A DNA stretch of 47,678 nt, from positions 1 through 47,678 of IMG/VR virus record IMGVR_UViG_3300008113_000438. The stretch is one strand, 5' to 3'. Position 1 is the stretch's first letter. Each line of letters begins with the position of its first letter. Under the pieces are notes generated by a model that did not search any database, had not been told where the DNA came from, and was given only the letters and a program-made list of their open reading frames with translations. Origin of the DNA: a virus. Shown here piece after piece: positions 1 through 35,953 of this stretch. Both the position numbers and the translations under genes were made by a program.

Positions 1-3000
1 ACAGTTCTTGTTGGAGTATTTGTTGGGGTAACAGTATTCGTAGGAGTATTAGTAGGTGTTAATGTAGGTGTAACAGTCTTGGTCGGAGTGTTTGTAGGAG
101 TATTTGTTGGTGTAACAGTGTTTGTTGGTGTTACCGTGTTTGTAGGAGTATTGGTAGGAGTGTTCGTTGGAGTATTGGTTGGTGTTAATGTAGGTGTAAC
201 AGTATTAGTAGGTGTTAATGTAGGTGTAACAGTCTTGGTTGGGGTGTTTGTAGGAGTATTTGTTGGTGTAACGGTGTTCGTAGGGGTAACTGTAGGACTC
301 AATGTAGGGGTTACAGTATTGGTCGGAGTATTAGTAGGTGTTAATGTAGGTGTAACAGTCTTGGTTGGTGTATTGGTTGGGGTAACCGTGTTAGTTGGTG
401 TGTTGGTGGGTGTTACTGTATTAGTAGGAGTAACTGTAGGACTCAATGTAGGAGTTACAGTCTTGGTTGGTGTATTAGTGGGTGTGTTTGTTGGTGTAAC
501 AGTATTGGTTGGGGTAACCGTGTTAGTTGGTGTGTTGGTTGGAGTATTTGTTGGGGTATTGGTTGGGGTGACTGTCTTAGTCGGTGTATTAGTTGGGGTT
601 ACTGTATTTGTTGGTGTAACCGTATTTGTTGGTGTATTTGTGGGTGTATTGGTTGGAGTTAAAGTTGGTGTTACAGTTTTTGTTGGTGTGTTGGTCGGTG
701 TAACTGTATTTGTTGGTGTATTTGTGGGTGTATTGGTCGGTGTAACTGTATTTGTTGGAGTATTTGTTGGGGTGTTAGTGGGTGTAACAGTATTAGTAGG
801 AGTATTTGTGGGCGTATTGGTCGGTGTAACTGTATTTGTCGGAGTATTGGTTGGGGTATTTGTTGGTGTAACGGTGTTCGTAGGGGTAACTGTAGGACTC
901 AATGTAGGGGTTACAGTGTTTGTAGGAGTGTTTGTGGGAGTGTTGGTTGGGGTAACTGTATTAGTAGGAGTAACTGTAGGGGTGACAGTTTTAGTAGGTG
1001 TATTAGTTGGAGTATTGGTAGGGGTTACAGTATTAGTAGGGGTATTTGTAGGAGTTAATGTAGGAGTTACAGTCTTGGTTGGGGTATTTGTTGGTGTAAC
1101 GGTGTTCGTAGGGGTAACTGTAGGACTCAATGTGGGAGTCACCGTATTGGTCGGAGTATTGGTGGGGGTTACTGTATTAGTAGGAGTATTAGTAGGAGTA
1201 TTGGTTGGGGTTACCGTGTTGGTCGGAGTTAAAGTTGGTGTAACAGTTTTTGTTGGTGTATTGGTTGGAGTTACAGTGTTCGTAGGGGTATTTGTTGGTG
1301 TTAGAGTTGGTGTAACAGTTTTTGTTGGTGTATTAGTAGGAGTTACGGTGTTAGTTGGAGTGTTGGTAGGTGTGTTAGTTGGTGTTACAGTGTTGGTTGG
1401 TGTATTAGTAGGTGTCTGAGTTGGTGTAACTGTCTTGGTTGGGGTATTAGTTGGCGTTACAGTATTGGTTGGGGTTACCGTATTTGTAGGAGTTACGGTA
1501 TTGGTTGGAGTAACAGTATTAGTCGGCGTTACTGTGTTAGTTGGGGTGTTAGTGGGGGTAACAGTATTAGTAGGAGTAACGGAATTCGTGGGAGTGTTTG
1601 TAGGAGTGTTTGTTGGTGTTAATGTAGGTGTTACGGTTTTTGTTGGTGTATTGGTTGGGGTTACTGTATTTGTAGGAGTATTTGTAGGAGTTAAGGTAGG
1701 TGTAACAGTATTGGTTGGGGTATTGGTAGGTGTGTTGGTCGGGGTGACTGTGTTAGTTGGTGTAACTGTATTAGTTGGTGTATTCGTAGGGGTTTGAGTT
1801 GGTGTAACAGTATTGGTTGGGGTATTTGTTGGAGTTAAAGTTGGTGTGACAGTTTTTGTTGGTGTATTGGTAGGAGTTACGGTATTTGTAGGAGTATTAG
1901 TCGGTGTCTGAGTTGGTGTTACGGTGTTTGTTGGAGTATTGGTTGGAGTTAATGTAGGTGTTACAGTCTTGGTTGGTGTATTAGTTGGTGTTACAGTATT
2001 AGTAGGTGTAACAGTATTAGTAGGTGTAACAGTGTTTGTAGGTGTAACGGTATTGGTGGGAGTCACCGTATTAGTTGGTGTGTTAGTTGGGGTTACGGTG
2101 TTGGTTGGAGTAACGGTATTTGTTGGGGTGTTTGTAGGAGTGTTTGTTGGTGTTAATGTAGGTGTTACGGTTTTTGTTGGTGTATTGGTTGGTGTAACAG
2201 TATTTGTTGGTGTGTTGGTGGGTGTGTTGGTGGGTGTTACAGTATTAGTTGGGGTATTAGTAGGACTCAATGTTGGGGTAACAGTATTCGTTGGTGTTAC
2301 AGTATTGGTTGGAGTGTTTGTTGGGGTATTTGTTGGGGTTACGGTATTAGTAGGGGTATTGGTTGGAGTTAATGTAGGAGTAACAGTCTTGGTTGGTGTA
2401 TTAGTTGGCGTAACAGTGTTTGTTGGGGTGTTAGTTGGGGTATTTGTAGGGGTTACCGTATTGGTCGGAGTGTTGGTTGGTGTTAATGTAGGAGTAACAG
2501 TCTTGGTTGGAGTGTTTGTTGGGGTAACAGTATTGGTTGGAGTCACTGTATTAGTTGGTGTGTTGGTCGGTGTATTTGTTGGGGTTAAAGTTGGTGTGAC
2601 AGTTTTTGTTGGTGTATTGGTTGGGGTTACTGTGTTAGTAGGAGTGTTTGTAGGTGTATTAGTAGGGGTATTAGTATTAGTCGGGGTATTGGTCGGTGTA
2701 ACTGTATTCGTTGGAGTAACGGTAGGAGTTAATGTAGGAGTAACAGTCTTGGTTGGTGTATTAGTAGGTGTGTTAGTAGGGGTTACCGTATTGGTTGGGG
2801 TGTTAGTCGGGGTAACTGTGTTAGTTGGTGTGTTAGTTGGTGTGTTGGTCGGAGTTACCGTATTTGTTGGAGTATTTGTAGGGGTTAAGGTAGGCGTAAC
2901 AGTTCTTGTTGGAGTATTGGTCGGTGTAACTGTATTCGTTGGAGTTACAGTGTTAGTGGGGGTTACGGTATTGGTCGGCGTTACAGTGTTAGTCGGTGTT

Positions 3001-6000
3001 ACCGTATTAGTTGGAGTATTTGTTGGCGTAACAGTGTTTGTTGGAGTTACAGTGTTTGTGGGGGTATTGGTTGGAGTATTGGTGGGAGTCTGAGTTGGGG
3101 TGACTGTCTTAGTTGGGGTATTGGTCGGGGTAACTGTGTTGGTTGGAGTAACGGTATTTGTTGGGGTATTGGTCGGGGTATTGGTTGGAGTTAAAGTTGG
3201 CGTAACAGTGTTTGTTGGTGTATTGGTAGGTGTTACAGTATTAGTTGGGGTATTGGTTGGAGTTAAAGTTGGTGTAACAGTTTTTGTTGGTGTATTAGTT
3301 GGCGTTACAGTATTAGTTGGTGTGTTAGTTGGTGTGTTTGTTGGGGTTACCGTATTGGTCGGAGTTACCGTAGGACTCAATGTAGGAGTTACAGTATTAG
3401 TTGGTGTGTTGGTTGGTGTGACTGTATTCGTTGGAGTGTTAGTAGGTGTCTGAGTTGGGGTAACAGTATTTGTTGGAGTATTGGTAGGAGTATTGGTAGG
3501 GGTTACAGTATTGGTAGGAGTATTGGTAGGGGTTACAGTATTGGTAGGAGTATTCGTTGGGGTTAGAGTTGGTGTAACAGTTTTGGTAGGAGTATTAGTA
3601 GGGGTTACAGTATTTGTAGGAGTTACCGTAGGACTCAATGTGGGAGTCACCGTATTAGTTGGTGTATTGGTTGGGGTTACGGTGTTGGTTGGAGTGTTTG
3701 TAGGTGTATTAGTTGGAGTAACAGTATTTGTAGGTGTATTAGTCGGGGTATTGGTTGGTGTTACGGTGTTGGTTGGGGTTAAAGTTGGTGTGACAGTTTT
3801 TGTTGGTGTATTGGTTGGCGTAACAGTGTTTGTCGGAGTATTAGTTGGGGTGTTGGTTGGTGTATTAGTTGGAGTTACAGTGTTGGTTGGAGTGTTAGTT
3901 GGTGTTACGGTATTGGTTGGGGTTACTGTGTTTGTAGGAGTATTGGTCGGTGTATTCGTTGGGGTTAGAGTTGGTGTAACAGTTTTGGTAGGAGTATTAG
4001 TAGGAGTTATAGTATTCGTTGGTGTGTTGGTCGGTGTAACAGTATTAGTTGGGGTGTTGGTTGGGGTGTTGGTTGGAGTAACAGTATTAGTTGGAGTATT
4101 AGTTGGGGTGTTGGTTGGAGTAACAGTGTTTGTTGGGGTTACCGTAGGGCTCAATGTGGGAGTTACAGTTTTAGTAGGGGTGTTTGTTGGAGTTACGGTG
4201 TTGGTTGGGGTATTGGTTGGTGTGTTAGTTGGTGTAACTGTATTAGTGGGAGTCACTGTAGGGCTCAATGTTGGAGTTACAGTGTTGGTTGGGGTGTTAG
4301 TTGGTGTATTGGTTGGTGTAACTGTATTCGTTGGAGTGTTTGTAGGAGTGTTGGTTGGGGTTACAGTATTAGTTGGTGTGTTGGTTGGAGTTAATGTAGG
4401 TGTAACGGTTCTTGTGGGGGTGTTGGTAGGGGTTACGGTATTAGTTGGAGTGTTTGTTGGGGTATTTGTTGGGGTTACGGTATTAGTTGGAGTGTTTGTT
4501 GGGGTATTTGTTGGGGTTACGGTATTAGTAGGGGTATTGGTTGGGGTATTTGTTGGGGTTACGGTATTAGTAGGGGTATTGGTTGGAGTTAATGTAGGTG
4601 TAACGGTTCTTGTGGGGGTGCTGGTAGGGGTTACGGTGTTAGTTGGAGTGTTGGTAGGTGTGTTAGTTGGCGTAACGGTGTTAGTTGGAGTCACAGTCGG
4701 ACTCAATGTAGGTGTTACTGTATTTGTTGGGGTGTTGGTAGGGGTATTTGTAGGTGTTACGGTGTTGGTAGGTGTAACTGTTGGACTCAATGTAGGAGTC
4801 ACAGTATTTGTTGGTGTATTTGTAGGTGTGTTAGTTGGGGTAACGGTATTAGTTGGAGTGTTGGTTGGTGTATTTGTTGGTGTTACTGTGTTAGTAGGGG
4901 TATTTGTGGGAGTATTTGTAGGTGTTACGGTGTTGGTAGGTGTAACTGTTGGACTCAATGTGGGAGTCACAGTTTTAGTAGGAGTATTTGTAGGTGTTAC
5001 GGTGTTGGTAGGTGTGTTTGTTGGGGTATTGGTTGGAGTTACCGTATTCGTCGGAGTATTAGTAGGGGTGTTAGTTGGAGTTACAGTGTTTGTTGGTGTG
5101 TTTGTAGGGGTATTGGTAGGTGTTACTGTGTTAGTAGGAGTATTTGTAGGAGTATTGGTTGGTGTTACGGTATTTGTAGGAGTTACAGTTGGTGTTAATG
5201 TAGGAGTCACCGTGTTTGTTGGGGTATTGGTGGGAGTATTTGTAGGGGTTACCGTATTTGTCGGTGTATTGGTTGGTGTTAAAGTAGGTGTAACCGTTCT
5301 TGTTGGAGTGTTAGTTGGTGTAACCGTATTTGTAGGAGTATTAGTAGGGGTGTTGGTAGGGGTTACAGTATTCGTAGGGGTATTGGTTGGTGTATTCGTG
5401 GGTGTGACAGTATTAGTTGGTGTTACGGTTGGACTCAGTGTAGGGGTTACTGTATTGGTTGGAGTGTTAGTTGGGGTATTTGTAGGTGTAACTGTATTTG
5501 TTGGGGTGTTTGTAGGTGTATTAGTTGGTGTAACTGTATTAGTTGGTGTATTCGTAGGGGTTTGAGTTGGTGTAACAGTATTTGTAGGAGTCACAGTCGG
5601 ACTCAATGTGGGAGTCACGGTCTTAGTCGGTGTGTTAGTAGGGGTAACTGTGTTCGTAGGAGTTACCGTAGGACTCAATGTAGGGGTGACAGTGTTGGTT
5701 GGAGTATTGGTTGGTGTGTTGGTTGGTGTTACGGTGTTTGTAGGAGTTACTGTATTAGTAGGAGTGTTCGTAGGGGTATTGGTAGGGGTTACTGTGTTAG
5801 TTGGAGTGTTAGTAGGTGTATTGGTAGGAGTAACTGTATTGGTTGGTGTATTTGTGGGTGTAACAGTGTTAGTTGGTGTGTTAGTTGGTGTGTTGGTAGG
5901 AGTTACGGTGTTAGTTGGAGTATTTGTAGGTGTCTGAGTTGGTGTAACTGTATTCGTAGGGGTTACAGTCGGACTCAGTGTAGGTGTTACTGTGTTAGTC

Positions 6001-9000
6001 GGGGTAACTGTAGGTGTATTTGTTGGAGTTACAGTGTTGGTTGGGGTGTTGGTTGGAGTTACGGTGTTCGTTGGAGTATTGGTTGGTGTATTAGTTGGGG
6101 TTACTGTATTAGTTGGAGTATTGGTTGGGGTATTGGTTGGAGTTACAGTCTTGGTTGGTGTGTTGGTTGGTGTTACGGTGTTTGTTGGAGTATTGGTTGG
6201 AGTGTTTGTGGGGGTGTTGGTTGGTGTTACGGTGTTTGTTGGGGTGACTGTATTGGTTGGAGTGTTTGTTGGGGTGTTGGTGGGAGTATTTGTAGGGGTT
6301 ACCGTATTTGTCGGTGTATTGGTTGGTGTTAAAGTAGGTGTAACCGTTCTTGTTGGAGTTACAGTCGGACTCAATGTTGGAGTTACTGTATTGGTTGGTG
6401 TTAGTGTCGGGCTTAATGTTGGTGTAACAGTACTAGTTGGGGTATTGGTTGGGGTGTTGGTTGGAGTTACCGTATTGGTTGGTGTATTCGTCGGTGTATT
6501 TGTAGGTGTAACAGTATTCGTAGGTGTTACAGTTGGAGTATTGGTTGGGGTTACTGTGTTAGTTGGAGTATTGGTGGGGGTATTGGTTGGAGTAACAGTA
6601 TTTGTTGGTGTCACAGTCGGACTCAATGTTGGTGTAACAGTTTTTGTTGGGGTATTTGTCGGTGTCTGAGTTGGTGTTACGGTATTGGTTGGCGTATTGG
6701 TAGGAGTATTGGTTGGCGTATTTGTTGGAGTTACGGTATTAGTTGGTGTGACTGTATTGGTTGGGGTGTTAGTCGGCGTGTTCGTAGGGGTGTTGGTTGG
6801 TGTTACCGTATTTGTTGGTGTATTAGTAGGTGTGTTAGTAGGTGTTACTGTATTTGTAGGCGTGTTCGTGGGAGTCTGAGTTGGTGTTACAGTGTTAGTA
6901 GGAGTGTTAGTTGGCGTGTTAGTGGGTGTAACAGTATTAGTAGGAGTCACCGTTGGACTCAATGTAGGTGTAACAGTATTGGTTGGTGTGTTGGTCGGAG
7001 TGTTGGTAGGAGTTACAGTATTAGTAGGAGTCACCGTTGGACTCAATGTAGGTGTAACTGTATTTGTTGGGGTATTTGTTGGGGTATTGGTAGGAGTTAC
7101 TGTATTAGTCGGAGTGTTGGTCGGGGTGTTGGTTGGAGTAACAGTGTTGGTGGGAGTATTGGTTGGAGTGTTAGTTGGTGTATTTGTTGGGGTTACGGTG
7201 TTGGTTGGAGATACCGTATTTGTAGGAGTATTGGTTGGAGTGTTAGTTGGGGTTAGTGTTGGGGTTACGGTGTTTGTTGGGGTATTGGTAGGTGTATTGG
7301 TTGGTGTAACGGTATTTGTAGGAGTAACAGTGTTGGTTGGAGTATTGGTAGGACTTAATGTTGGCGTATTAGTTGGGGTTACGGTGCTGGTTGGAGTCAC
7401 TGTTGGACTCAATGTAGGTGTAACTGTATTTGTTGGTGTGTTGGTAGGAGTGTTTGTAGGAGTCACAGTATTAGTAGGAGTCACAGTTGGACTTAATGTG
7501 GGAGTTACTGTATTAGTTGGAGTGTTGGTAGGTGTGTTAGTTGGGGTTACTGTATTTGTCGGGGTATTGGTTGGGGTATTTGTTGGTGTAACGGTGTTGG
7601 TCGGAGTGTTTGTGGGAGTATTTGTAGGAGTTACTGTGTTCGTAGGAGTTACTGTAGGACTCAATGTTGGTGTTACTGTATTTGTTGGGGTGTTAGTAGG
7701 AGTGTTTGTTGGAGTCACCGTGTTTGTTGGGGTATTGGTGGGAGTATTTGTTGGTGTAACAGTATTTGTTGGGGTGTTAGTTGGGGTGTTGGTAGGAGTT
7801 ACCGTATTGGTTGGTGTGTTAGTTGGGGTGTTGGTAGGAGTTACCGTATTGGTTGGTGTGTTAGTAGGAGTGTTTGTTGGTGTAACAGTATTGGTTGGTG
7901 TGTTAGTAGGAGTGTTTGTTGGTGTAACAGTATTGGTAGGAGTTACAGTTGGGGTGTTGGTTGGAGTTACAGTATTAGTAGGCGTATTGGTAGGAGTATT
8001 AGTTGGAGTTACTGTATTTGTAGAAGTATTGGTAGGAGTATTGGTAGGGGTGACAGTATTGGTGGGCGTATTGGTAGGAGTATTGGTTGGGGTGACTGTA
8101 TTTGTTGGAGTATTTGTTGGGGTGTTAGTTGGAGTTACTGTATTTGTAGGAGTATTGGTAGGAGTATTGGTAGGGGTGACAGTATTGGTGGGGGTGTTTG
8201 TAGGAGTATTGGTAGGGGTGACAGTATTGGTTGGAGTATTAGTTGGGGTGACTGTATTTGTTGGAGTATTTGTTGGGGTGTTGGTAGGGGTGTTGGTAGG
8301 AGTTACAGTATTGGTTGGAGTAACTGTATTGGTTGGAGTGTTTGTCGGGGTATTTGTAGGTGTCAGTGTCGGTGTTACGGTATTTGTTGGAGTATTAGTA
8401 GGAGTGTTAGTTGGTGTAACCGTATTTGTTGGTGTATTTGTGGGTGTATTGGTAGGAGTAACTGTATTGGTAGCCGTATTGGTAGGAGTGTTGGTTGGTG
8501 TATTAGTTGGTGTGACTGTATTGGTCGGAGTTACCGTCGGTGTATTTGTTGGGGTTACGGTATTGGTAGGGGTTACTGTTGGTGTATTCGTAGGCGTGTT
8601 TGTTGGGGTTACGGTATTTGTTGGAGTATTAGTGGGGGTATTCGTAGGTGTATTGGTTGGTGTTACGGTGTTAGTTGGGGTATTTGTAGGGGTTTGAGTT
8701 GGTGTAACGGTATTGGTTGGAGTCACTGTTGGACTCAATGTTGGCGTTACCGTATTGGTAGGAGTATTAGTTGGCGTATTGGTAGGAGTAACTGTGTTGG
8801 TTGGGGTGTTGGTAGGAGTGTTAGTTGGTGTTACAGTATTAGTTGGTGTGTTAGTTGGTGTGTTTGTTGGTGTTACGGTGTTCGTAGGGGTGTTAGTAGG
8901 TGTCAGTGTTGGGGATACCGTATTGGTAGGAGTGTTAGTTGGTGTATTTGTAGGGGTTACCGTATTGGTAGGAGTATTAGTTGGTGTATTTGTAGGAGTA

Positions 9001-11690
9001 GCAGTATTAGTAGGGGTATTTGTTGGAGTATTGGTCGGTGTTACAGTGTTTGTTGGAGTGTTGGTTGGTGTTACAGTGTTTGTTGGGGTGTTTGTCGGAG
9101 TGTTGGTTGGGGTATTCGTTGGTGTTACAGTATTTGTAGGGGTTACGGTGTTGGTTGGAGTATTGGTGGGGCTTAATGTTGGGGTATTTGTAGGGGTTAC
9201 GGTGTTGGTTGGGGTCGCTGTTGGAGTCAATGTAGGTGTAACTGTATTGGTTGGGGTATTGGTAGGAGTATTGGTTGGGGTAACAGTATTGGTAGGAGTA
9301 ACTGTTGGACTCAATGTAGGAGTAACTGTATTGGTAGGAGTGTTTGTTGGTGTATTGGTTGGTGTTACAGTATTAGTTGGAGTATTTGTTGGAGTTAAAG
9401 TTGGTGTAACAGTTTTTGTTGGTGTATTAGTTGGGGTGTTAGTAGGAGTTACTGTATTGGTTGGTGTGTTTGTGGGAGTATTGGTTAATGTAACGGATGG
9501 TGTTACAGTGTTGGTTGGTGTTACCGTTGGAGTATTGGTGGGTGTTGGGGTGCTCGTTGGAGTTGGTGAGGGTAACATTGTATAATCAATGTCACAAGAA
9601 GGTGCTGGTGTTGGTGAAACCGTCACAGTTACACTTGGTGTATTTGTTGGAGTTACAGTATTGGTTGGAGTTACAGTATTTGTCGGGGTGTTTGTGGGGG
9701 TAACTGTATTGGTTGGAGTCACTGTTGGACTCAATGTTGGTGTTACAGTGTTAGTAGGAGTGTTGGTCGGCGTGTTAGTTGGAGTATTGGTTGGTGTTAC
9801 GGTGTTAGTTGGTGTTACCGTAGGACTCAATGTAGGAGTCACAGTATTGGTAGGTGTATTGGTTGGAGTATTGGTTGGTGTTACGGTGTTAGTTGGTGTT
9901 ACCGTAGGACTCAATGTAGGAGTCACAGTATTCGTTGGTGTGTTTGTAGGTGTATTAGTCGGAGTTACGGTGTTGGTTGGAGTTACGGTATTTGTGGGAG
10001 TGTTTGTAGGAGTGTTGGTAGGAGTGTTTGTTGGAGTTACGGTGTTGGTTGGGGTATTGGTTGGGGTATTGGTTGGTGTAACGGTATTTGTAGGAGTATT
10101 TGTAGGTGTCTGAGTTGGAGTTACTGTATTCGTCGGTGTGTTTGTTGGGGTGTTGGTAGGAGTTACGGTATTGGTAGGACTTAATGTTGGAGTGTTAGTT
10201 GGAGTATTTGTTGGAGTTACTGTGTTGGTTGGAGTATTCGTAGGTGTAACCGTATTTGTTGGTGTATTAGTTGGGGTGTTTGTAGGTGTATTAGTTGGTG
10301 TCACAGTTTCTGTTGGAGTCACTGTAACAGTATTGGTTGGTGTGACTGTATTGGTAGGGGTTACGGTGTTGGTTGGTGTAAGTGTTGGTGTTTCTGTGGG
10401 AGTATTTGTTGGTGTGTTGGTGGGGGTATTTGTTGGTGTTTCGGTTGGTGTATTTGTAGGTGTATTAGTTGGAGCTACCGTATTTGTTGGAGTTACAGTT
10501 GGAGTGTTAGTTGGGGTAACCGTTGGTGTAACAGTATTGGTAGGAGTATTGGTTGGGGTTTGAGTTGGTGTAACGGTTGCAGTATTTGTTGGTGTTAGGG
10601 TAGGTGTTTCAGTTTGTGTTACAGTGGGTGTATTGGTTGGAGTTACAGTATTGGTTGGAGTTACAGTTGAGGTATTAGTCGGAGTGTTAGTTGGTGTTAT
10701 GGTGTTGGTTGGGGTATTGGTAGGTGTTTCGGTAGGGGTAACGGTTGGACTCAGTGTTGGTGTTACTGTGTTAGTCGGAGTATTAGTTGGGGTGTTGGTT
10801 GGTGTTTCGGTAGGGGTAACGGTTAGGGTTACGGTGTTGGTTGGAGTATTGGTTGGTGTTTCGGTTGGTGTTTCGGTTGGTGTATTAGTTGGGGTAACAG
10901 TATTGGTTGGAGTTACAGTTGGGGTAACAGTTGGGGTAACAGTTGGAGTTACGGTGTTGGTTGGGGTATTGGTTGGTGTTTCGGTTGGTGTTTCGGTTGG
11001 TGTATTAGTTGGGGTAACAGTATTTGTTGGGGTGTTAGTGGGTGTTTCAGTCGGTGTATTAGTTGGGGTATTGGTTGGTGTTTCGGTAGGGGTTACTGTA
11101 TGAGTTGGTGTATTGGTAGGTGTTTCGGTAGGGGTTACCGTATTTGTTGGAGTTACAGTTGGAGTTTCGGTAGGGGTAACTGTATTTGTTGGGGTGTTGG
11201 TAGGTGTTTCAGTTGGTGTATTGGTTGGGGTTACCGTATTTGTTGGGGTTACAGTTGGAGTTTCGGTCGGAGTAACAGTTGGTGTCTCGGTTGGTGTAAC
11301 TGTATTCGTAGGAGTTACAGTAGGTGTGTTGGCTGGTGATTCGGTTGGAGTTACTGTGTTAGTTGGGGTAACTGTAGGAGTTTCAGTTGGGGTAACCGTT
11401 GGGGTATTTGTTGGGGTATTGGTTGGAGTTACTGTGTTAGTTGGAGTAACTGTAGGAGTTTCAGTTGGGGTAACTGTAGGCTCGTTTGTTGGAGTATTAG
11501 TCGGAGTTACGGTATTCGTAGGAGTATTTGTTGGAGTGATAGTATTGGTTGGGGTAACAGTAGGTGTTTTTGTAACCGTAGGTGTAACAGTAGGGGTTTT
11601 GGTAACTGTTGGGGTTGGGGTATTTGAAGTAAAGGTTGTTGGTGTTGGTGTTAATGATGGTGTAAGTGTTGGTGAAGGTGTAGGTGAAGG
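1..11690 (-). repeat. Degenerate coding minisatellite, 6-bp base period with 30- and 42-bp units
   Basis: The smallest period is 6 bp (Thr-X). These build 12-bp (TPTN) and then 18-, 30- or 42-bp units ending in a Val-Thr pair. Higher-order tandem copies are visible: 4441-4482 and 4483-4524 are identical 42-mers followed by a diverged third copy; 7801-7930 holds successive 42-bp copies; 9778-9848 is repeated at 9862-9932 with an 84-bp (2 x 42) spacing. The plus strand is rich in G and T and poor in C throughout, so the transcript is rich in A and C and poor in G. The pattern fits growth by slippage or unequal recombination followed by drift at silent sites. Confidence 0.9.
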
Positions 11691-11891
11691 TGTAGGGCAA
11701 GGAATCTCAGCCACACAAGTTTTATCAAGTGACGGAAAATAAACTGAGTAAGTACCTAAGTAGTAGTTTGTGTCGTAATAATATGGCATCACGACAGTAC
11801 CTAAATTCAAGGTACCGCCAGTACAAGGATAAAATGTGATAACACCAATTTCACCATCAAAATTACCTGTGTTTATTTTTATTAATGCCAT
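1..11891 (-). CDS. Giant Thr/Pro-repeat fibre-like protein (partial, open at left edge)
   Basis: One minus-strand frame runs without a stop from an ATG at 11891-11889 to the left window edge: 3963 codons and continuing. Residues 1-65 look globular (start [16 protein letters not shown], with Cys at about 23, 58 and 65). The rest is low complexity, with Thr at nearly every second position and Pro, Asn, Val, Leu, Glu or Gln between, as units V-(TPTN)n-T plus TLSPTVTP variants. A short non-repeat island ([10 protein letters not shown]) lies near residue 766. Glu-containing TPTETP units are confined to about residues 134-527. The plus-strand Val-Gly frames are antisense shadows: they are broken by TGA, which reads as Gln (CAG/CAA) or His in the minus frame. 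The gene follows eight tail/baseplate genes of the same polarity. A virion fibre or surface-exposed, possibly O-glycosylated stalk is inferred; the 3' end and any receptor-binding tip are outside the window. Confidence 0.85.
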
Positions 11892-11931
11892 TTAAATCTA
11901 CAGTCTTATCTATATCTATTTTTATTATAAA

Positions 11932-11960
11932 AATATACTCATTTATTCGGGTATTGTCAA
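11932..11960 (-). promoter_or_regulatory. Candidate promoter for the giant repeat gene
   Basis: In the 90-bp gap between the 1414-residue gene and the giant gene, the minus strand carries TTGACA (11960-11955), a 17-base spacer and TATATT (11937-11932), a near-consensus sigma-70 type promoter. The same stretch also resembles the Bacteroidota -7 element (TAnnTTT). Transcription would begin near 11925 and leave a leader of about 35 bases with no Shine-Dalgarno sequence before the ATG at 11891. The region is AT-rich, so a chance match is possible, but the exact TTGACA and ideal spacing are notable. Confidence 0.45.
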
Positions 11961-11981
11961 CGTCTATTTTTACAGTTTTTA

Positions 11982-14900
11982 TCATGGACAATCAAAAATG
12001 GAACTACTTAATTCCTCATTAGTTGGTTCTGTAGGACAATGGTTGGCATCGATATAATATTGACCGAGGTTGAATCCAATATTTGGATGTTTATCGTATT
12101 TGTGTTTCATCAGAATTTGGTCGCTGTTATTTCCATTGAAAACAACAACAAATTCATCAGTTAGTGGTGTATTGTCTAATTCAAAATTTAGATTGAAGTA
12201 TAATCCTGTATCGCAATAATTTAAGTCGACATCAATTACTTCTATGGTTTTACCATATTTGTTTATTAAATAATCCCCATGGTTATATAATTCTTTCGGA
12301 TGGTCACAACAAGGTTCAATAAAATCTGTTGGTTTTTTTTGTAATTCCTCTGGGAACCTATCGTCAAAAAAGTAAACACTATTTGTAGGTGTTCCAAAAT
12401 TTTCAATGATTCTATTTGTATAAACTCTTAGTTGTGTTGTTGGTAAAACTTCAAAAACTTCATAAGTATTATTTTGGGTTAATCCTGTAATGATACTTTT
12501 CTTGATTGATGCTAAACATTCAATGTCTGTAATTTCAAGTTTTTGATAGTTGTACGTAAATGAATACCCTGATACAGGTCCATTCACAATTTGTTGGTGA
12601 CTATATTCTGTACATTGTTTGTAAGATGCAGATAAAACATATTCCCCAACATTTAAATCACAAACACTTTTACCACTTATCGTACCACCACTAATATAAC
12701 TTTCAATATTGTCATCTGTAGTTTGGTTGTCAATGGTTAATCCGCTATCAACTACTAAAACTATAGAGTCACATTTTAAACCATAGTTAAAGTTTGATTT
12801 GTATTCAACTTTTGGTTGTATTGTGTAACCTGTGTAATTGTCACAATATGTTGCACCTGAAACAACTGAAATTGGGGATGATATTGTTCCTTGGTAACCA
12901 ACAATACTAAATAATTCTACGTGACTTTTTCCTGATGGTGTTGGACATGGGTCATGTTCAATTTTGGGTTGTAGACCTTCAATTTTGAATTTTACTTCTT
13001 TATTTGCTGCATCTACAATATTAAAATCTATTACATCATTTTCTGAAAAACCAGTTAATTTATATACACAATCACTAACTTTTTGAATGTAAACATCCGC
13101 ATTTTCATTTGTTCCACTTACACAATTAGCATAAATGTTAAATGGCCATGTTGAACCTTGTTGGATACCTGTTTTGTATCCAATTACTTCAAAAAACACA
13201 TCACTCACTAATGTACATCCACTGTTTGAGTCGCAATAAACGGTATTATCAGTATAAACTTTAACACTGATTCCATTTGTATTTTTTGTGATTTTGTAAT
13301 CGGCATCAAATCGATAATCAAAATAGTCGACCACTGAACATTCGTTTGGACCTAATTTTACGGATGAAAACTTAACTTTTTCAACACCATTTTCATCAGT
13401 GTATGTTGTGTATTTTATTAATGGTATTGTTTCTGAAAAATATGTTTGGCCTGTGGTTCCCGTGAAAGCAGAATAGGGTTCATACCCTGCACTATTTCTT
13501 GTAATAGTTACGTCATCAATCAATACAGATAACGCCGATAACCATAGTTCTTTAATTTTAGTAACATCAGGTTCAAGATAATCTTTATAATCACATATTA
13601 AGGAAAGATTTACCGTATCACCACTGGTGACCCCACTTGTACATCCTGTAAATGGTTGTGCATCAAATAATTTTGCACTGTTTGAAGTGTTACTTGTTCC
13701 ACTAACAATCACATACATAGAGGATGTTAGACCCGTGTAGTCGGCCCCACCATAAACTGTTCCATCAATTTCAATTACAGGATAGTAAGTAACACCTGTA
13801 AGGTTTATTAAACCTCTAAAATTATTTTCTTCACCTAAAATATTTTCTAAATCTTCCTCAATTACATTTTCAAAATCAGGGTATAGTTCCTCAATAAATT
13901 CTAATGGTTGACAATCATATCTATATTGATATTTTGGTCTACCAAACACGTTATTTTCTATTAAATTACCGCCGGTCCATTGAGTGGTTGATGGTACTAA
14001 TTGTTCAACTAATTGTGGCCAATAAGGTGATAATTTATTAACAAATTCAATAACATTTATTTGATTATATGGTGTAAAACCTGTTGTTTGTGATATATAA
14101 TCTCTATAGACATCTTCTAATTGAATATAATTTTTTTTGTAACGAATTTTGTTAGAATTTGTTACAAGTCCATGAATAAAGGTGTCTAAAAATTCAGCAA
14201 AAGTTTTACCTGTTTGGGGTAATAAAGTATTTGTACCAAAACTTATTAATAATTCTCTACTTTGTCTAAAGATATCATAATCTATACCTCGTGATGGTGA
14301 GATATAAATTCCAATGTTTTTTCTATTTAAAATTAATAAATAATCATCCTCAATTGGTTTTCCGTCTTTATTATCGACCGCGGAAACCAATTCATAACCG
14401 GTATCTAAACCTGGTAATGTTCTATATAAATCAAAGTATTCTTCTCCGTATGTGTAGTTTTTATTCTTTGTTTTAATTGTTTTGGTGTTACCCGTTAGTA
14501 TTGAGTTACTACTGTCTAAAACGAGTGGAGTACGGTGTGATAATGTAATATCGTACCATCCTGAACCTTTACCAAAGAATATGTTTTCAGTTTCGTTATA
14601 TGCTCTTCTTGGTAGTCCAGTTTTTTCGTCTACAGGGTAACCCTCTCTGTCAAATGTTGTTGACGCTGAGTAGTAAACTTTAGAATATGTGAAACCTGTA
14701 CTATCAAAGGTGGCGTAAGAATATCTTTTGTTACCTTGAATCGCATCGTATATGTCTTGTTGTAAATTAAAACTAGATGGAATTGACGTTACTTTATAAA
14801 TGTATTCATCAATCCTAATCAAAGGCTCGGGTGCCCCCAAAAATTTTAAAAAGAAATCAATAGAGGATTTTGTTCCTTTTGATTTATAAATGTGAGCAAG

Positions 14901-16226
14901 ATTTATAAGTAATCTTCGATAAAACTCATACTCAGCTTCAATTAAATTCGTACCGGTTGATACTCCGTCATAATTTGATTGTAATCTTGAATATAAAACA
15001 TCATTTAGACTATTTTCATCGAATAAATTTAATGTTGATAAACCTAAATTTTCTGCTAAGTTTTTTAAAAGTACATCAGGTAAATTATTAATTCCATCAT
15101 AACTTACGTTTCTCATATAAGCTATGTTGTCTATGTATTTCTTTACACTATCAAAGCTTTGACCATATAATTGAAATACACTTTCAGCTCTTTTATCTTC
15201 GGTGTCAAATTCAAATAACTGTGGTGCGGCTAAAAATCTAACCATTAGATTAGATTTATACACATCTATCTCATCAGCAATATCTTTTAATTTACCAACA
15301 TATAAATCGTAATCAAAACCGGTTATTTGTATGTTATAACCATCATTAGATATTGGCCAAGTTATTACAACATCAACCAAAGATGTTTTTGAATTGTCTT
15401 GAACATCTCTCGGTACTTTAAATGATGAAGTATAAATTGGATTTGTTTCTCTATTTAAAAGTGATTCCTCTAAATCGTCTAACCCTTCGAAAAATTCTTC
15501 AACTAAACCATCGTTTGGTCTTATCAATAAATTTTCTGAATATGTTGAACCAGTAAATGGTTGTCCATATACCTTTAAGTAAATTCTATTGTTTGTATTC
15601 GGTTCGCTGTATTCTAAAATTGGATATGGTGTGTTATTTGTAACAACAACATATTTTGTATAAGACGAATAAAAATTTCTTAATTCGTTTTCAGTTTCTG
15701 GTTTAACTACTGAATTAGGCTCAACAAAAACTAAATCAAAAGGATTGAATATTTTACTTCTTTCGATGTAAAAAGTTGTGGTATTGGTGCTATCGTTATA
15801 TGTTATTCCACTAGCACTGTAATTAGAAACACCTATAGGACTGTCCGATAAGATTGAAATTCCACCCGGAAACTTGTTTATAATTCTAGTTAATGAAACT
15901 AAAATTCTACTTGTTAACGAACCAAATAAAGATTTATCGGCATATTTTTTGTTGCCCTTAAACCTTACTTCGTCAGTTCTCTTTTTTCTTGGTGTTGCTG
16001 ATGTTGTTTGAATACCCTCAACCTCTTTTAACGTATCTAATGTTAAAAATTGAGAGAATGGGTTACTCGTAAAATTTTTAGAATCTTTGTCAGGGATAGA
16101 CTTATCAAGCGCAAATACGGTGTTGGTTAGTGCAGATGAACCATCAGTTATCTGTCTACCAACTAAGAAATCATTAAATGTTTCCGCTCCGCTTGACGCT
16201 TGACTCGGTACTTTTCTCCTTGCCAT
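11982..16226 (-). CDS. Large baseplate/tail structural protein (1414 aa)
   Basis: No family is recognised with certainty. The N-terminal half is mixed alpha/beta; around residues 350-490 a helical segment including FYRRLLINLAHIYKSKGTKS and FFLKFLGAPEPLIRIDEY resembles the tail protein I / wedge-type proteins that contact the baseplate periphery in contractile systems. The C-terminal half is rich in Gly, Thr, Tyr and scattered Cys and looks like a string of beta-sandwich domains, as in tail-tip or fibre-anchoring proteins. Its ATG shares the A of the preceding gene's TAA (TAATG), indicating translational coupling. It lies last in the baseplate block, directly before the giant Thr/Pro gene, so it is a reasonable candidate for the fibre attachment protein (inference). 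A gp7-like wedge role is an alternative. Confidence 0.7.
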   Translation of the reverse strand: MARRKVPSQASSGAETFNDFLVGRQITDGSSALTNTVFALDKSIPDKDSKNFTSNPFSQFLTLDTLKEVEGIQTTSATPRKKRTDEVRFKGNKKYADKSLFGSLTSRILVSLTRIINKFPGGISILSDSPIGVSNYSASGITYNDSTNTTTFYIERSKIFNPFDLVFVEPNSVVKPETENELRNFYSSYTKYVVVTNNTPYPILEYSEPNTNNRIYLKVYGQPFTGSTYSENLLIRPNDGLVEEFFEGLDDLEESLLNRETNPIYTSSFKVPRDVQDNSKTSLVDVVITWPISNDGYNIQITGFDYDLYVGKLKDIADEIDVYKSNLMVRFLAAPQLFEFDTEDKRAESVFQLYGQSFDSVKKYIDNIAYMRNVSYDGINNLPDVLLKNLAENLGLSTLNLFDENSLNDVLYSRLQSNYDGVSTGTNLIEAEYEFYRRLLINLAHIYKSKGTKSSIDFFLKFLGAPEPLIRIDEYIYKVTSIPSSFNLQQDIYDAIQGNKRYSYATFDSTGFTYSKVYYSASTTFDREGYPVDEKTGLPRRAYNETENIFFGKGSGWYDITLSHRTPLVLDSSNSILTGNTKTIKTKNKNYTYGEEYFDLYRTLPGLDTGYELVSAVDNKDGKPIEDDYLLILNRKNIGIYISPSRGIDYDIFRQSRELLISFGTNTLLPQTGKTFAEFLDTFIHGLVTNSNKIRYKKNYIQLEDVYRDYISQTTGFTPYNQINVIEFVNKLSPYWPQLVEQLVPSTTQWTGGNLIENNVFGRPKYQYRYDCQPLEFIEELYPDFENVIEEDLENILGEENNFRGLINLTGVTYYPVIEIDGTVYGGADYTGLTSSMYVIVSGTSNTSNSAKLFDAQPFTGCTSGVTSGDTVNLSLICDYKDYLEPDVTKIKELWLSALSVLIDDVTITRNSAGYEPYSAFTGTTGQTYFSETIPLIKYTTYTDENGVEKVKFSSVKLGPNECSVVDYFDYRFDADYKITKNTNGISVKVYTDNTVYCDSNSGCTLVSDVFFEVIGYKTGIQQGSTWPFNIYANCVSGTNENADVYIQKVSDCVYKLTGFSENDVIDFNIVDAANKEVKFKIEGLQPKIEHDPCPTPSGKSHVELFSIVGYQGTISSPISVVSGATYCDNYTGYTIQPKVEYKSNFNYGLKCDSIVLVVDSGLTIDNQTTDDNIESYISGGTISGKSVCDLNVGEYVLSASYKQCTEYSHQQIVNGPVSGYSFTYNYQKLEITDIECLASIKKSIITGLTQNNTYEVFEVLPTTQLRVYTNRIIENFGTPTNSVYFFDDRFPEELQKKPTDFIEPCCDHPKELYNHGDYLINKYGKTIEVIDVDLNYCDTGLYFNLNFELDNTPLTDEFVVVFNGNNSDQILMKHKYDKHPNIGFNLGQYYIDANHCPTEPTNEELSSSIFDCP

Positions 16227-25023: not shown

Positions 25024-26742
25024 TTAGAATGTAGTCGTTCCTAATGTTTTTACTCTAACTTTTATATCTTTCTGAGGAAATCTTATTTGATATATTTGGT
25101 TAGATTTCATAGCGTTTACCACTCCATTTACTTCACCTATTGTTTTATATAAATCACCAACAAATAATGGGTCACCCATTTTTCTTTTTTCAATTGAAAA
25201 ATAACTAACAGTATCCTCGATAATAGTTTTAACAATCTCTGTTTGGTTACCATTTTTATCAATAACAACGTCAATCTCTAGTGTGAAATCAACCACTTCA
25301 CCGCTTTGAACTTCTAAAAAGTCATTAACCATTCGGTACTCGGCTAAGTAAGATAAAATGTTGTTTTTTAATGTGTTTGAAACAGTATCAATAAGATTAC
25401 CATTCTCATCATATGACAATAATTTAATTTTTATTTTATTGTCTTCTTCCATCACGTTTACCTTAGCGGGAGCCCCATATGTTGATGGCATTGTCTCAAT
25501 TAAAGATTTATAATCATTAAGAGTTACCGCCCTATTTTGTGCAGAGAAGTTATATGCTATCATGTTTCTAACTTCTTCAATTGTGGGTTGGTCCGCACCT
25601 CCAACAGCTGGTGTTACGTTGGTTACGGTTAAAGAATTTTGTACTTGAGTGTTCGTTGATGAGTTAGGTCCATTAATAGAAAATTCAACATTATCTACAC
25701 TTGTAATAATATCAATACCGAGATTACTATCCTTACCTCCTCCAATTCTATATTTTATGAATAACGTTGTATTTGATTTCGGTAAAGCACCTAATGATAG
25801 GTTATTCAAATACGTTCCAAGACTTACTCTTAAAGTACCTTGGTTATAGTTGTCCAAATTATCCAATGGATTAACATTACCAGAACCAAATGTTACCGAA
25901 AAATAATTTTCGGGAGTATATTCTGTAATAAATTTATTTGTAACTGGAACGTATGTTCCCGATATGAAATTATCACTATCAGATGCCGATGTTGGGTCGG
26001 GCACAAATACTTTATCTTGTATTAATGATTTTACTTCGTACCATTTATTTTCAGAACTTAAAAATTCAGAGTTAGTTGGATTATTTACAAAGTTTGTTCC
26101 CTCTTTATGAATTACTCCACTCACCCCTAATATGTTTTGTTCAGGTAAGAATATTTTTAAGAAAGGTTTTTGGTCAACTTCTGTTATAACTTTTCTATAT
26201 ATTCTTGTTACACCATTTACAACAGCTTCTCTTTTTACAATTGAGTATGATATGAGTCTATTATTACCATCAAAATTTGGGATTTTTAATCTGTTTGGTT
26301 CACCTCTTTTATTGAAGGGATTTGAGAAATCAATATCGTCGATGGTTTCAAAAACTTGTCCCCCACCCGATACTTGTGCACCTGATTTTATAGTCCCCAA
26401 ATAACGCTCATCTTCTTTATCTCCTCTAACAGGTACTTGTATTGTAAAATCACACAAAGAAACCGATGGTCTATTACCTGGTATTCTCATACCATATGTT
26501 TTGGCAATATGATACAATGATTGTCTTTGTTGTGCAAAATCTAGCATTGTCTCTTGCCAAACCCTATCAATGTGAAAATGTAAATTGTCTGTCACAGCGG
26601 CATTTAAATCCAATAAAACAGAATAAATTGATGCGTCATTTGTATTCTTAATCAAATCGGGATAATATTCCCTTGTGAGATTAACTAGTTCCTGTCTTAA
26701 ACTCGCAAAGTCTCTGACGGCGTATGATATTTTTTTAGCCAT
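25024..26742 (-). CDS. Baseplate wedge protein, gp6/J-like (572 aa)
   Basis: This is a gp6-type wedge protein, the core component that forms the baseplate ring around the hub. Visible family features: the N-terminus with DFASLRQELVNLTREYYPDL and the following segment about dimerising helices (NLHFHIDRVWQETMLDFAQQ), and the C-terminal core GGADQPTIEEVRNMIAYNFS, AQNRAVTLNDYKSLIETMPS and GAPAKVNV, the hallmark of baseplate J/gp6 proteins. The length is close to the T4 protein (about 660 residues). It begins two bases after the gp25-like gene stops, the same pairing found in T4-like and P2-like tails, so both wedge proteins are made together. Confidence 0.9.
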   Translation of the reverse strand: MAKKISYAVRDFASLRQELVNLTREYYPDLIKNTNDASIYSVLLDLNAAVTDNLHFHIDRVWQETMLDFAQQRQSLYHIAKTYGMRIPGNRPSVSLCDFTIQVPVRGDKEDERYLGTIKSGAQVSGGGQVFETIDDIDFSNPFNKRGEPNRLKIPNFDGNNRLISYSIVKREAVVNGVTRIYRKVITEVDQKPFLKIFLPEQNILGVSGVIHKEGTNFVNNPTNSEFLSSENKWYEVKSLIQDKVFVPDPTSASDSDNFISGTYVPVTNKFITEYTPENYFSVTFGSGNVNPLDNLDNYNQGTLRVSLGTYLNNLSLGALPKSNTTLFIKYRIGGGKDSNLGIDIITSVDNVEFSINGPNSSTNTQVQNSLTVTNVTPAVGGADQPTIEEVRNMIAYNFSAQNRAVTLNDYKSLIETMPSTYGAPAKVNVMEEDNKIKIKLLSYDENGNLIDTVSNTLKNNILSYLAEYRMVNDFLEVQSGEVVDFTLEIDVVIDKNGNQTEIVKTIIEDTVSYFSIEKRKMGDPLFVGDLYKTIGEVNGVVNAMKSNQIYQIRFPQKDIKVRVKTLGTTTF

Positions 26743-26743
26743 A

Positions 26744-27172
26744 TTATATGTTAATAATTATAAAATCGGACGAAACAAAAGGTTCGTTATTTATGTCATA
26801 GTCAATTCGAACTTTTGCGGTATATGGTTTGGTTGAATAATCAGAAACTCTAAACAATCTTGAGTCCTCATCTTCTTGTGGGCTCATAGATTCTTCAGGG
26901 TCTTGGTCAGCGGGTGTAACTCTAATTGATTTTATTTCTAAATTAGGTATGTATAATTTCACCGCAGTTCTTATTTCATCTTCTATCTGACCCCATGTTA
27001 CAGCGTCATTTGGTTCAAAAATAAATTCATATAATCTAGTCCCAAAATCAGGTAAATAATATCTTGAACCCTTTCTTGTTAATAACAAGTGAATCAAGTT
27101 TGCACGAATCTCTCTCTCAGGGGTTTCGGTCGGATTATATATTGTTTGATTTTTTTGCTCCTGTATAATCAA
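26744..27172 (-). CDS. Baseplate wedge protein, gp25-like (142 aa), TTG start
   Basis: A GPW/gp25 family protein, the small wedge component at the inner baseplate ring that nucleates the sheath. The family core is clear: REIRANLIHLLLTRKGSRYY, then LPDFGTRLYEFIFEPND and IEDEIRTAVKLYIPNLEIKS. The length is normal for the family (about 130). There is no ATG in the N-terminal region: the codon at 27172-27170 is TTG, and the frame is closed by TAA about 24 bases further upstream, so TTG (or a neighbouring ATT/ATA) must initiate. It starts the second baseplate block, about 50 bases after nrdA. Confidence 0.9.
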   Translation of the reverse strand: MIIQEQKNQTIYNPTETPEREIRANLIHLLLTRKGSRYYLPDFGTRLYEFIFEPNDAVTWGQIEDEIRTAVKLYIPNLEIKSIRVTPADQDPEESMSPQEDEDSRLFRVSDYSTKPYTAKVRIDYDINNEPFVSSDFIIINI

Positions 27173-35578: not shown

Positions 35579-35953
35579 TTACTCAAGAGTTAAAAGATAC
35601 AGTAATTTATTCAATAAACCAAGCATCTCATCTCTTAAATTTAACAAATCAGTGTCTAATCTATCATCTAAGTCATCTGAGAACTCAACAAGAGCTTCAG
35701 TACAAACTTTGACCATGTCAACGGGATTGACCTCTGAAAGGTTTACTAACTGAATAGTATTTGTATCCTCTTCAAGTGTAAATCTACCATATTTACCCAT
35801 GGCAACCTCAACAAATTCGTCAATAAGGTCTGATAAACCATCATAGGTTTTACCAAAAGCGTCGTGCCTGGCAATACCTTTTGTTTGCCAATGGTTTATT
35901 TTCATTTGTAATTGTAAACCTAATAAGAAGTTTACTTTAGAACTTAAATTCAT
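35579..35953 (-). CDS. Small ferritin/Dps-like helical protein (124 aa)
   Basis: The all-helical sequence has a Dps-like first-helix signature: QMKINHWQTKGIARHDAF then YDGLSDLIDEFVEVAMGKYG. H21 (in NHW), H30, D45 and E49 keep the Dps ferroxidase ligand order, and the H30-D45-E49 spacings (15 and 4) equal those of E. coli Dps; only the first loop is 3 residues shorter. The protein is shorter than Dps (about 165), lacking part of the C-terminal bundle. It resembles phage proteins placed in a domain of unknown function (I recall DUF5856, not checked). Iron binding or DNA protection is possible but unproven. The start overlaps the preceding gene by 17 bases. Confidence 0.7.
   Translation of the reverse strand: MNLSSKVNFLLGLQLQMKINHWQTKGIARHDAFGKTYDGLSDLIDEFVEVAMGKYGRFTLEEDTNTIQLVNLSEVNPVDMVKVCTEALVEFSDDLDDRLDTDLLNLRDEMLGLLNKLLYLLTLE

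Follow-up and report, generated by a model that had tools for sequence, protein, structure and literature searches.

A phage gene of 5,472 codons with an alternating Thr/Ser array: a probable giant tail-associated fibre and its possible glycosylation by phage PF11397 enzymes

Phage structural proteins are known both as glycoproteins and as elaborate host-catching fibres. At least two glycoproteins were detected by proteomics in virions of the Xanthomonas phage XacN1, for which the phage's own enzymes were tentatively suggested as makers, and two glycosyltransferases, open reading frames (ORFs) 328 and 334, are named in its genome; no link from ORF334 to Thr-Pro repeats is made in the accessible part of that paper (PMC5852040). 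Virion structural proteins of mycobacteriophage are reported to be glycosylated as well (Freeman 2023, cited in PMC12619734), and the jumbo phage phiKp24 is a large phage with hyperbranched host-catching tail fibres (PMC9700779). A further likeness is found in Trypanosoma cruzi, whose Thr-rich mucins have a demonstrated enzyme for adding N-acetylglucosamine (GlcNAc): TcOGNT1, of family GT60, makes GlcNAc-alpha-O-Thr in mucin-like proteins (PMC9472816; see also PMC3769586), while a T. brucei member of GT60 is described as having no known function (PMC9472816). Here we describe a gene at one end of a 47,678-nt stretch of viral DNA (IMG/VR virus record IMGVR_UViG_3300008113_000438, the whole of which is called the window below), which encodes a fibre-like protein with Thr or Ser at nearly every second position over thousands of residues.

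XacN1 shares with the window's phage a PF11397 enzyme (its ORF334 is a PF11397 homologue) and many proteins with the same alternation, here called the lattice: ORFs 174, 180, 190, 232-237, 350, 369, 370, 372 and 384, some of them beside tail genes. There are 28-373 lattice residues per XacN1 ORF, as against about 4,990 in one protein here; the longest XacN1 lattice ORF has 2,829 residues, 373 of them in the lattice, and the XacN1 host is different. The mycobacteriophage glycans are described at the C-termini of capsid and tail-tube proteins, whereas here a mucin-like shaft would carry them. T. cruzi mucins are membrane-anchored and pass through a eukaryotic Golgi, whereas the present, putative system belongs to a phage in bacteria. 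Alternating (S/T)-X stretches as here are also found in PHROG 15511, of unknown function, which was matched by five linker-bearing proteins of the longest record of the same virus (G010). HFTV1 was rejected as a precedent because its threonine-rich motif sits in the host S-layer (PMC9973310). Open-access searches listed no paper that, judged by title or abstract start, deals with Thr-Pro repeat or mucin-like phage fibres or with PF11397 in phages. Thr-Pro linkers and phage glycoproteins are already known, so this is not in principle a new kind of gene product; as far as open-access searches went, the size, the strict hydroxyl lattice and the pairing with a mucin-type enzyme have not been described together.

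In the window, a minus-strand frame starting with ATG ran without a stop through 3,963 codons (positions 3 to 11891) and continued past the contig end. Its 3,963 residues included 1,905 Thr, 828 Pro, 619 Asn and 351 Val. The preliminary description had reported both the single open frame and Thr at nearly every second residue, and both were borne out; of its formula, V-(TPTN)n-T, the alternation stood, but unit lengths vary and the shaft holds one Cys motif. Plus-strand coding was rejected, as the plus frames were interrupted by stops several times, and an Rfam scan of the window at gathering thresholds gave no match. The gene and its parts within the window are:

3..11891, minus strand: giant fibre gene, first 3,963 of 5,472 codons; the stop and the C-terminus lie beyond the contig end
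11697..11891, minus strand: N-terminal domain (N-domain), residues 1-65; 79-100% identity across 28 loci; predicted to be small and all-beta
3..11621, minus strand: shaft, an alternating (Thr/Ser)-X array, residues 91-3963 in the window, continuing to about residue 4812 in the full gene
9558..9611, minus strand: single-Cys motif, residues 761-778, carried by seven distinct family members

Because the window is the whole virus record, the end of the gene lies outside it. The N-terminal 68 residues as query matched 28 IMG/VR loci, with 100% identity at 13, and the C-terminal domain of a relative gave a match in 14 of 19 records, 6 of these within an open frame of 5,472 residues. Ten longer records of the same virus were compared, leaving out two (G001 and G002) that had no C-terminal match. 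An identical ORF of 5,472 codons, ending in Cys-rich domains, was found in six of the ten (L030-L035; protein P0001), and since six records agree, 5,472 is the best estimate of length. The predicted protein is 564 kDa and contains 1,095 Pro and 56 Gly. Extension leftwards, as had been proposed earlier, thus recovered the C-terminus; the giant frame is real, and the gene is larger than the window shows.

An in-frame stop or a collapse of the repeat had been named beforehand as a threat to this result, and on this point the assemblies were divided: six of the ten agreed on the full frame, and in four the frame was broken. Nine of the ten showed no difference from the window across its first 11,891 nt. 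The four broken records had net losses of 310, 253, 268 and 430 nt; the losses fell in different places within nt 11,628-13,386 of the gene, and their junctions did not keep the repeat register. They are read as local misassembly, with real variants possible. Every 127-mer of the array is unique and exact direct repeats in the gene reach 116 nt at most; the array could therefore be resolved by reads or read pairs exceeding that length. Compared with G010, the window itself was missing about 81, 113 and 124 bases at 21638, 25111 and 27131, and its ORFs there were shorter (for example, 572 residues for the gp6-like protein versus 610 in G010). These three short gaps look like local assembly loss, and small assembly errors therefore probably occur in this set of records.

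The full-length protein is organized like a fibre, with a conserved N-domain, a variable shaft and a distal non-repeat tip. The N-domain is followed by a Pro/Ser/Thr linker (residues 66-90) and by the shaft, about 4,720 residues long (residue 91 to about 4812). Beyond the shaft are Cys-rich domains at about residues 4813-4886, 5004-5090 and 5091-5173 and a C-terminal domain at about 5314-5472, connected by Thr-Pro linkers. AlphaFold predicted a small all-beta N-domain (predicted local distance difference test, pLDDT, 64.6) and a beta-rich C-terminal domain (pLDDT 75.5), and the best VIA Z for the end domains was 3.8 over 64 residues, not a convincing match. In named phages, tblastn gave no match for the N-domain, and the C-terminal domain had six Synechococcus phage baseplate-wedge matches at E 0.3, which were not used as evidence. 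The shaft consists of long, dense Ser/Thr/Pro repeats of the kind found in mucins. A collagen-like fibre was rejected, as 56 Gly in 5,472 residues do not allow Gly at every third position; N-glycosylation was also rejected, as there were 6 N-X-S/T sequons in the whole protein, few because the alternation largely excludes such sites. Trypsin would cut at 77 sites, up to 924 residues apart, so trypsin-based proteomics could easily miss the protein.

Four relatives kept the N-domain and a related tip and had swapped arrays. Three were complete (G013, 2,737 residues; G015, 2,940; G016, 4,989), and the fourth (G018) ran for 4,688 residues, including a 20-N gap, to a frame break near the tip. N-domain identity to that of the window was 79-96% in the other 13 rows of the alignment, and tip identity was 26-38%. 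The shaft sequences were TPTN/TVTP in the window's phage, SVTPSVTPTSS in G015, TNTLTPTNTI in G016 and TITPTITS in L028. A profile scan with the C-terminal domain, limited to a single short pattern, returned 18 loci: the same virus accounted for 12, and the others were G018, G015, G013, two in G016, and a short contig, L583. The second fibre-like protein of G016, with 1,872 residues (L041:4118-9733), shared its Cys-rich tip with the giant fibre and contained many Cys-rich modules.

Within the shaft, the single-Cys motif, which ends in [MRK]-[LI]-PSPTP, was found in seven distinct members. In the six that could be numbered it was located at residue 334, 612, 766, 840, 1008 or 1255; the five long arrays had no other Cys from residue 100 up to 800 residues before the end of the sequence. 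The motif was absent from G015, several short fragments ended too early to show it, and it was not found in XacN1.

Analysis of 11 arrays showed Thr or Ser at 98.8-99.8% of the alternating sites and at 0.4-15.2% of the other sites; the lattice phase was set from neighbouring residues and the array windows were chosen by Ser/Thr/Pro content, which raises the score, but not to 99%. The lattice was constant across these arrays while the X residues and the Thr/Ser ratio differed. At 2,355 alternating sites the entropy was 0.09, 0.15 and 1.81 bits at codon positions 1, 2 and 3, and in 463 pairs of identical 18-residue windows the codons differed at 60% on average, compared with 62% for independent draws. 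An open frame alone is weak evidence here, because Thr, Pro, Asn and Val codons are two or more substitutions from a stop. The scrambling of synonymous codons indicates that selection acts on the protein rather than that the DNA was recently copied, and a chance or selfish repeat was rejected on these codon-position statistics. The shafts change in length and in their X residues, yet selection preserves the hydroxyl spacing; repeat recombination may be the cause of the turnover.

Two genes of G010, o315 and o316, matched the GlcNAc glycosyltransferase family PF11397 (E 3.1e-72 and 7.1e-48; bit scores 244.4 and 164.3, with the curated cut-off at 21), a family that we take to comprise GT60 and Skp1-type enzymes. 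A search of 24 records with PF11397 gave matches in G010, G007 and G015 only, with a tandem pair in each; the remaining records were mostly fragments, but three named phages among them were whole. Across eight phage PF11397 enzymes, in a comparison of phage sequences only, LDSHHRF, GEEI and other columns were invariant. The two enzymes of G010 (265375-281748; L061, L062) are flanked by genes that look glycan-related or methyltransferase-like by eye; of three genes of this region scanned with Pfam, both enzymes matched and the third did not. When o315 was searched against 50,697 named phage records (tblastn, E <= 1e-5), three homologues were found, in XacN1 and in the Stenotrophomonas phages CM1 and RAS14.

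The occurrence of the lattice was counted on both strands with the pattern WCNCCNWCNNNNWCNCCNWCNNNNWCN, and the backward pattern served as control. The enzyme-bearing named phages had 93 (XacN1), 64 (RAS14) and 64 (CM1) sites, with 1 backward site each. Twelve hand-picked named phages without the enzyme, taken from gp6 and DNA-polymerase matches, had 0, 1, 1, 0, 0, 1, 0, 0, 0, 0, 2 and 0 sites, and five tail-sheath relatives of XacN1 had 0, 0, 1, 0 and 0; the PF11397 search in these five was silent even in control genomes, and their lack of the enzyme rests also on tblastn. Fisher's test for 3 of 3 versus 0 of 17 gave p 0.0009, or 0.006 with CM1 and RAS14 taken as one; neither these nor the contig counts below take account of shared ancestry.

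Eighteen of 22 IMG/VR contigs selected by the enzyme (loci in contigs of at least 117 kb among the best 80 of 166 o315 relatives, own virus excluded) had at least 5 sites, with a backward sum of 8; when the four contigs closest by enzyme identity were removed, the count was 14 of 18. Contigs were also selected by the repeats (at least 86 kb among the 80 Thr-Pro pattern loci listed, own virus excluded; G042 is in both sets), and 13 of these 21 carried PF11397. None of 20 control contigs carried PF11397 and none had more than 2 sites. The controls came from an arbitrary 14-mer (17 contigs of at least 53 kb among 80 loci) and from a gp6 scan that yielded mainly short contigs (3 of 49 loci, also at least 53 kb); most of these controls fell short of the test contigs in length, which makes the named phages the better control. 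Eight DNA-polymerase relatives all had 15-56 sites, and two of the eight had PF11397 in the contig sequence. One enzyme match in genome_contigs was on an alphaproteobacterial metagenome-assembled contig without a lattice ORF, and it pointed to no host.

At the level of gene neighbourhoods the association was not general, although it was clear at the level of genomes. Within short flanking sequence, repeat genes were found at 5 of 80 enzyme loci and at 2 of 80 DNA-polymerase loci, the latter with shorter flanks. In L162 and L172 (L173 is alike) a repeat gene ends 45 and 19 bases upstream of the enzyme gene on the same strand; L162 has a second PF11397 gene after the first. A Thr-Pro lattice protein with two PF11397 enzymes in a row was also seen at L596:8529-11824. 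In 20-kb windows, repeat genes were near the enzyme in 8 of 20 cases and in 4 of 20 controls (p 0.15), and linkage as a general rule was therefore not supported. In XacN1 (219791-223508; L080:5989-9706) the PF11397 enzyme gene adjoins a carbamoyltransferase gene, about 5 kb downstream of the DNA polymerase.

Together, these data point to a giant tail-associated fibre that is glycosylated by the phage's own enzymes, a phage mucin, and we put the probability of this reading at roughly 0.55. The fibre role is well supported: the giant fibre or tether suggested in the preliminary description agrees with the anatomy of N-domain, shaft and Cys-rich tip, with the tail and baseplate neighbourhood described below, and with the relatives that have swapped shafts. 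Glycosylation of the shaft, which that description had offered as a possibility, we infer from the co-occurrence and from the chemistry of enzymes that we take to belong to the PF11397 family; the dense Ser/Thr/Pro repeats, the PF11397 genes in the genome and their co-occurrence with repeats elsewhere fit the mucin-like part of the proposal. In a large phage with a contractile tail, the 65-residue N-domain would anchor the fibre to the tail or baseplate, and many of the shaft Thr and Ser residues would receive GlcNAc or a related sugar from the PF11397 enzymes. With its sugars and prolines the chain might stay extended, soluble and resistant to proteases, and would thereby hold the Cys-rich C-terminal domains far from the virion to catch a host surface; the single shaft Cys may form a disulfide between chains or serve to bind a partner. 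With 0.25-0.31 nm for each residue, an extended chain would bring the shaft to about 1.2-1.5 micrometres, and a bare disordered coil of the same shaft would be nearer one tenth of its extended length. The reach of about a micrometre proposed earlier would accordingly hold for an extended chain but not for a bare disordered coil. More broadly, we give about even odds to the view that large phages of several lineages run their own mucin system, in which PF11397 GlcNAc-transferase-like enzymes are paired with structural proteins bearing Ser/Thr at every second residue and which in the window's family takes the form of a densely glycosylated single-chain filament, possibly more than 1 micrometre long, with a Cys cross-link node and a Cys-rich tip.

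Several observations weigh against a glycosylated fibre. The evidence on glycosylation, on presence in the virion and on the shape of the chain is indirect. Foldseek at E <= 0.001 gave no match for the tip or the N-domain, and comparison of the PF11397 enzyme with solved structures by sequence gave none at E <= 0.001. Four of the 22 enzyme-bearing contigs had fewer than 5 sites (1, 0, 4 and 4), 8 of the 21 repeat-selected contigs were without PF11397 in the contig sequence, and six of the eight polymerase relatives, including contigs of 199 and 208 kb, had repeats without it; the fragmentary state of contigs may explain this, but only partly. The clustering in 20-kb windows was not significant, the setting of the XacN1 enzyme might fit modification of DNA or of glycans, and no tail fibres were seen in XacN1 by electron microscopy (PMC5852040). 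Under a rival reading the fibre would be real but the PF11397 enzymes would modify DNA or host surface sugars, the shaft being a bare, disordered entropic tether and the co-occurrence a result of the large-phage lifestyle or of shared ancestry. The carbamoyltransferase and polymerase near the XacN1 enzyme, the general lack of close linkage, the many repeat-bearing contigs that show no enzyme and the wider set of glycan genes in this phage all favour it, and phage glycosyltransferases acting on DNA are described (cited in PMC12619734). It is nevertheless rather doubtful. The 17 hand-picked phages without the enzyme, which were 141-551 kb in size and included the five sheath relatives of XacN1, had at most 2 sites, so size and lineage alone are not an easy explanation. 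The GT60 enzyme with shown activity, TcOGNT1, modifies protein (PMC9472816), and the thymidylate synthase matches the ordinary Pfam family, though modified bases are still possible.

The remaining alternatives concern the shaft itself. The strict two-residue periodicity in 11 arrays would suit an unmodified, ordered, beta-rich filament with an all-hydroxyl face and pairing chains, for which the TxT beta structures of ice-binding proteins offer an analogue; with Pro at 1,095 of 5,472 positions, one residue in five, which is hard to fit into long beta strands, and with irregular unit lengths, such a filament is unlikely. It is less likely still that the array is a tolerated repeat expansion without length-dependent function, in which only the ends matter. 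Members do range from 2,737 to 5,472 residues and their X residues turn over, but the hydroxyl spacing stays at or above 98.8% while synonymous sites in the window's array look saturated, all four complete members found run to thousands of residues, and a conserved motif lies inside the shaft. Least credible is that the length or continuity of the array is an artefact of assembly. Four of ten records do differ locally with a broken frame, and the window itself is without three short stretches of the longest record, but six records match exactly across the 16.4-kb gene, no 127-mer recurs, and relatives with different arrays are likewise thousands of residues long.

If the phage-mucin reading is true, the (S/T)-X lattice and a PF11397 gene together serve to predict both the phages that glycosylate and their target proteins, mucin-type chemistry extends to viruses of bacteria, and phages possess a long-reach capture device with a fast-evolving length and surface. 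XacN1, RAS14 and CM1 are sequenced and have named hosts, so the mucin reading is testable now.

The genes upstream of the giant gene in the window include:

11982..16226, minus strand: directly upstream gene, 1,414 residues; no PHROG or Pfam match
25024..26742, minus strand: baseplate wedge subunit, presumably T4 gp6-like (phrog_6, 7.3e-23)
26744..27172, minus strand: baseplate wedge subunit, which we take to be gp25-like (phrog_261, 1.2e-18)

The baseplate wedge genes are thus 13-15 kb upstream of the giant gene on the same strand, as in a tail module. The G010 record (288,260 bases) had 341 ORFs by a simple caller, with tail sheath and tail tube genes and 23 tRNAs, including those for Thr, Pro, Asn and Val. 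Genes o094, o095 and o097, downstream of the giant gene, encode Cys-containing segments joined by Thr-Pro linkers. The N-domain of the giant fibre recurs, followed by a short Thr/Ser-Pro linker, on o058 (308 residues; L050:12194-13120 = G010 52194-53120), which suggests a shared anchor for different tips; an F5/8 type C match to this protein (3.1e-5) fell below the curated cut-off. The window's gp6-like protein had a distant match in a Flavobacterium phage, and from this match and the style of signal peptide our guess is a Bacteroidota host. PADLOC gave no match for four window proteins.

Near the tail sheath gene, an 844-residue protein (L051:1770-4304 = G010 61770-64304) combines a Thr/Ser-Pro lattice linker with DUF5122 beta-propeller repeats. 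A weak 2OG-Fe(II) oxygenase match (7.9e-5, under the cut-off) was found at L057:16667-17539 (G010 196667-197539), in a protein that resembles one annotated as prolyl 4-hydroxylase in Microcystis phage Mel-JY01; this oxygenase-like protein could modify prolines of the fibre. At 35579-35953 of the window, near replication genes, a small protein matched a PHROG described as a starvation-inducible transcriptional regulator.

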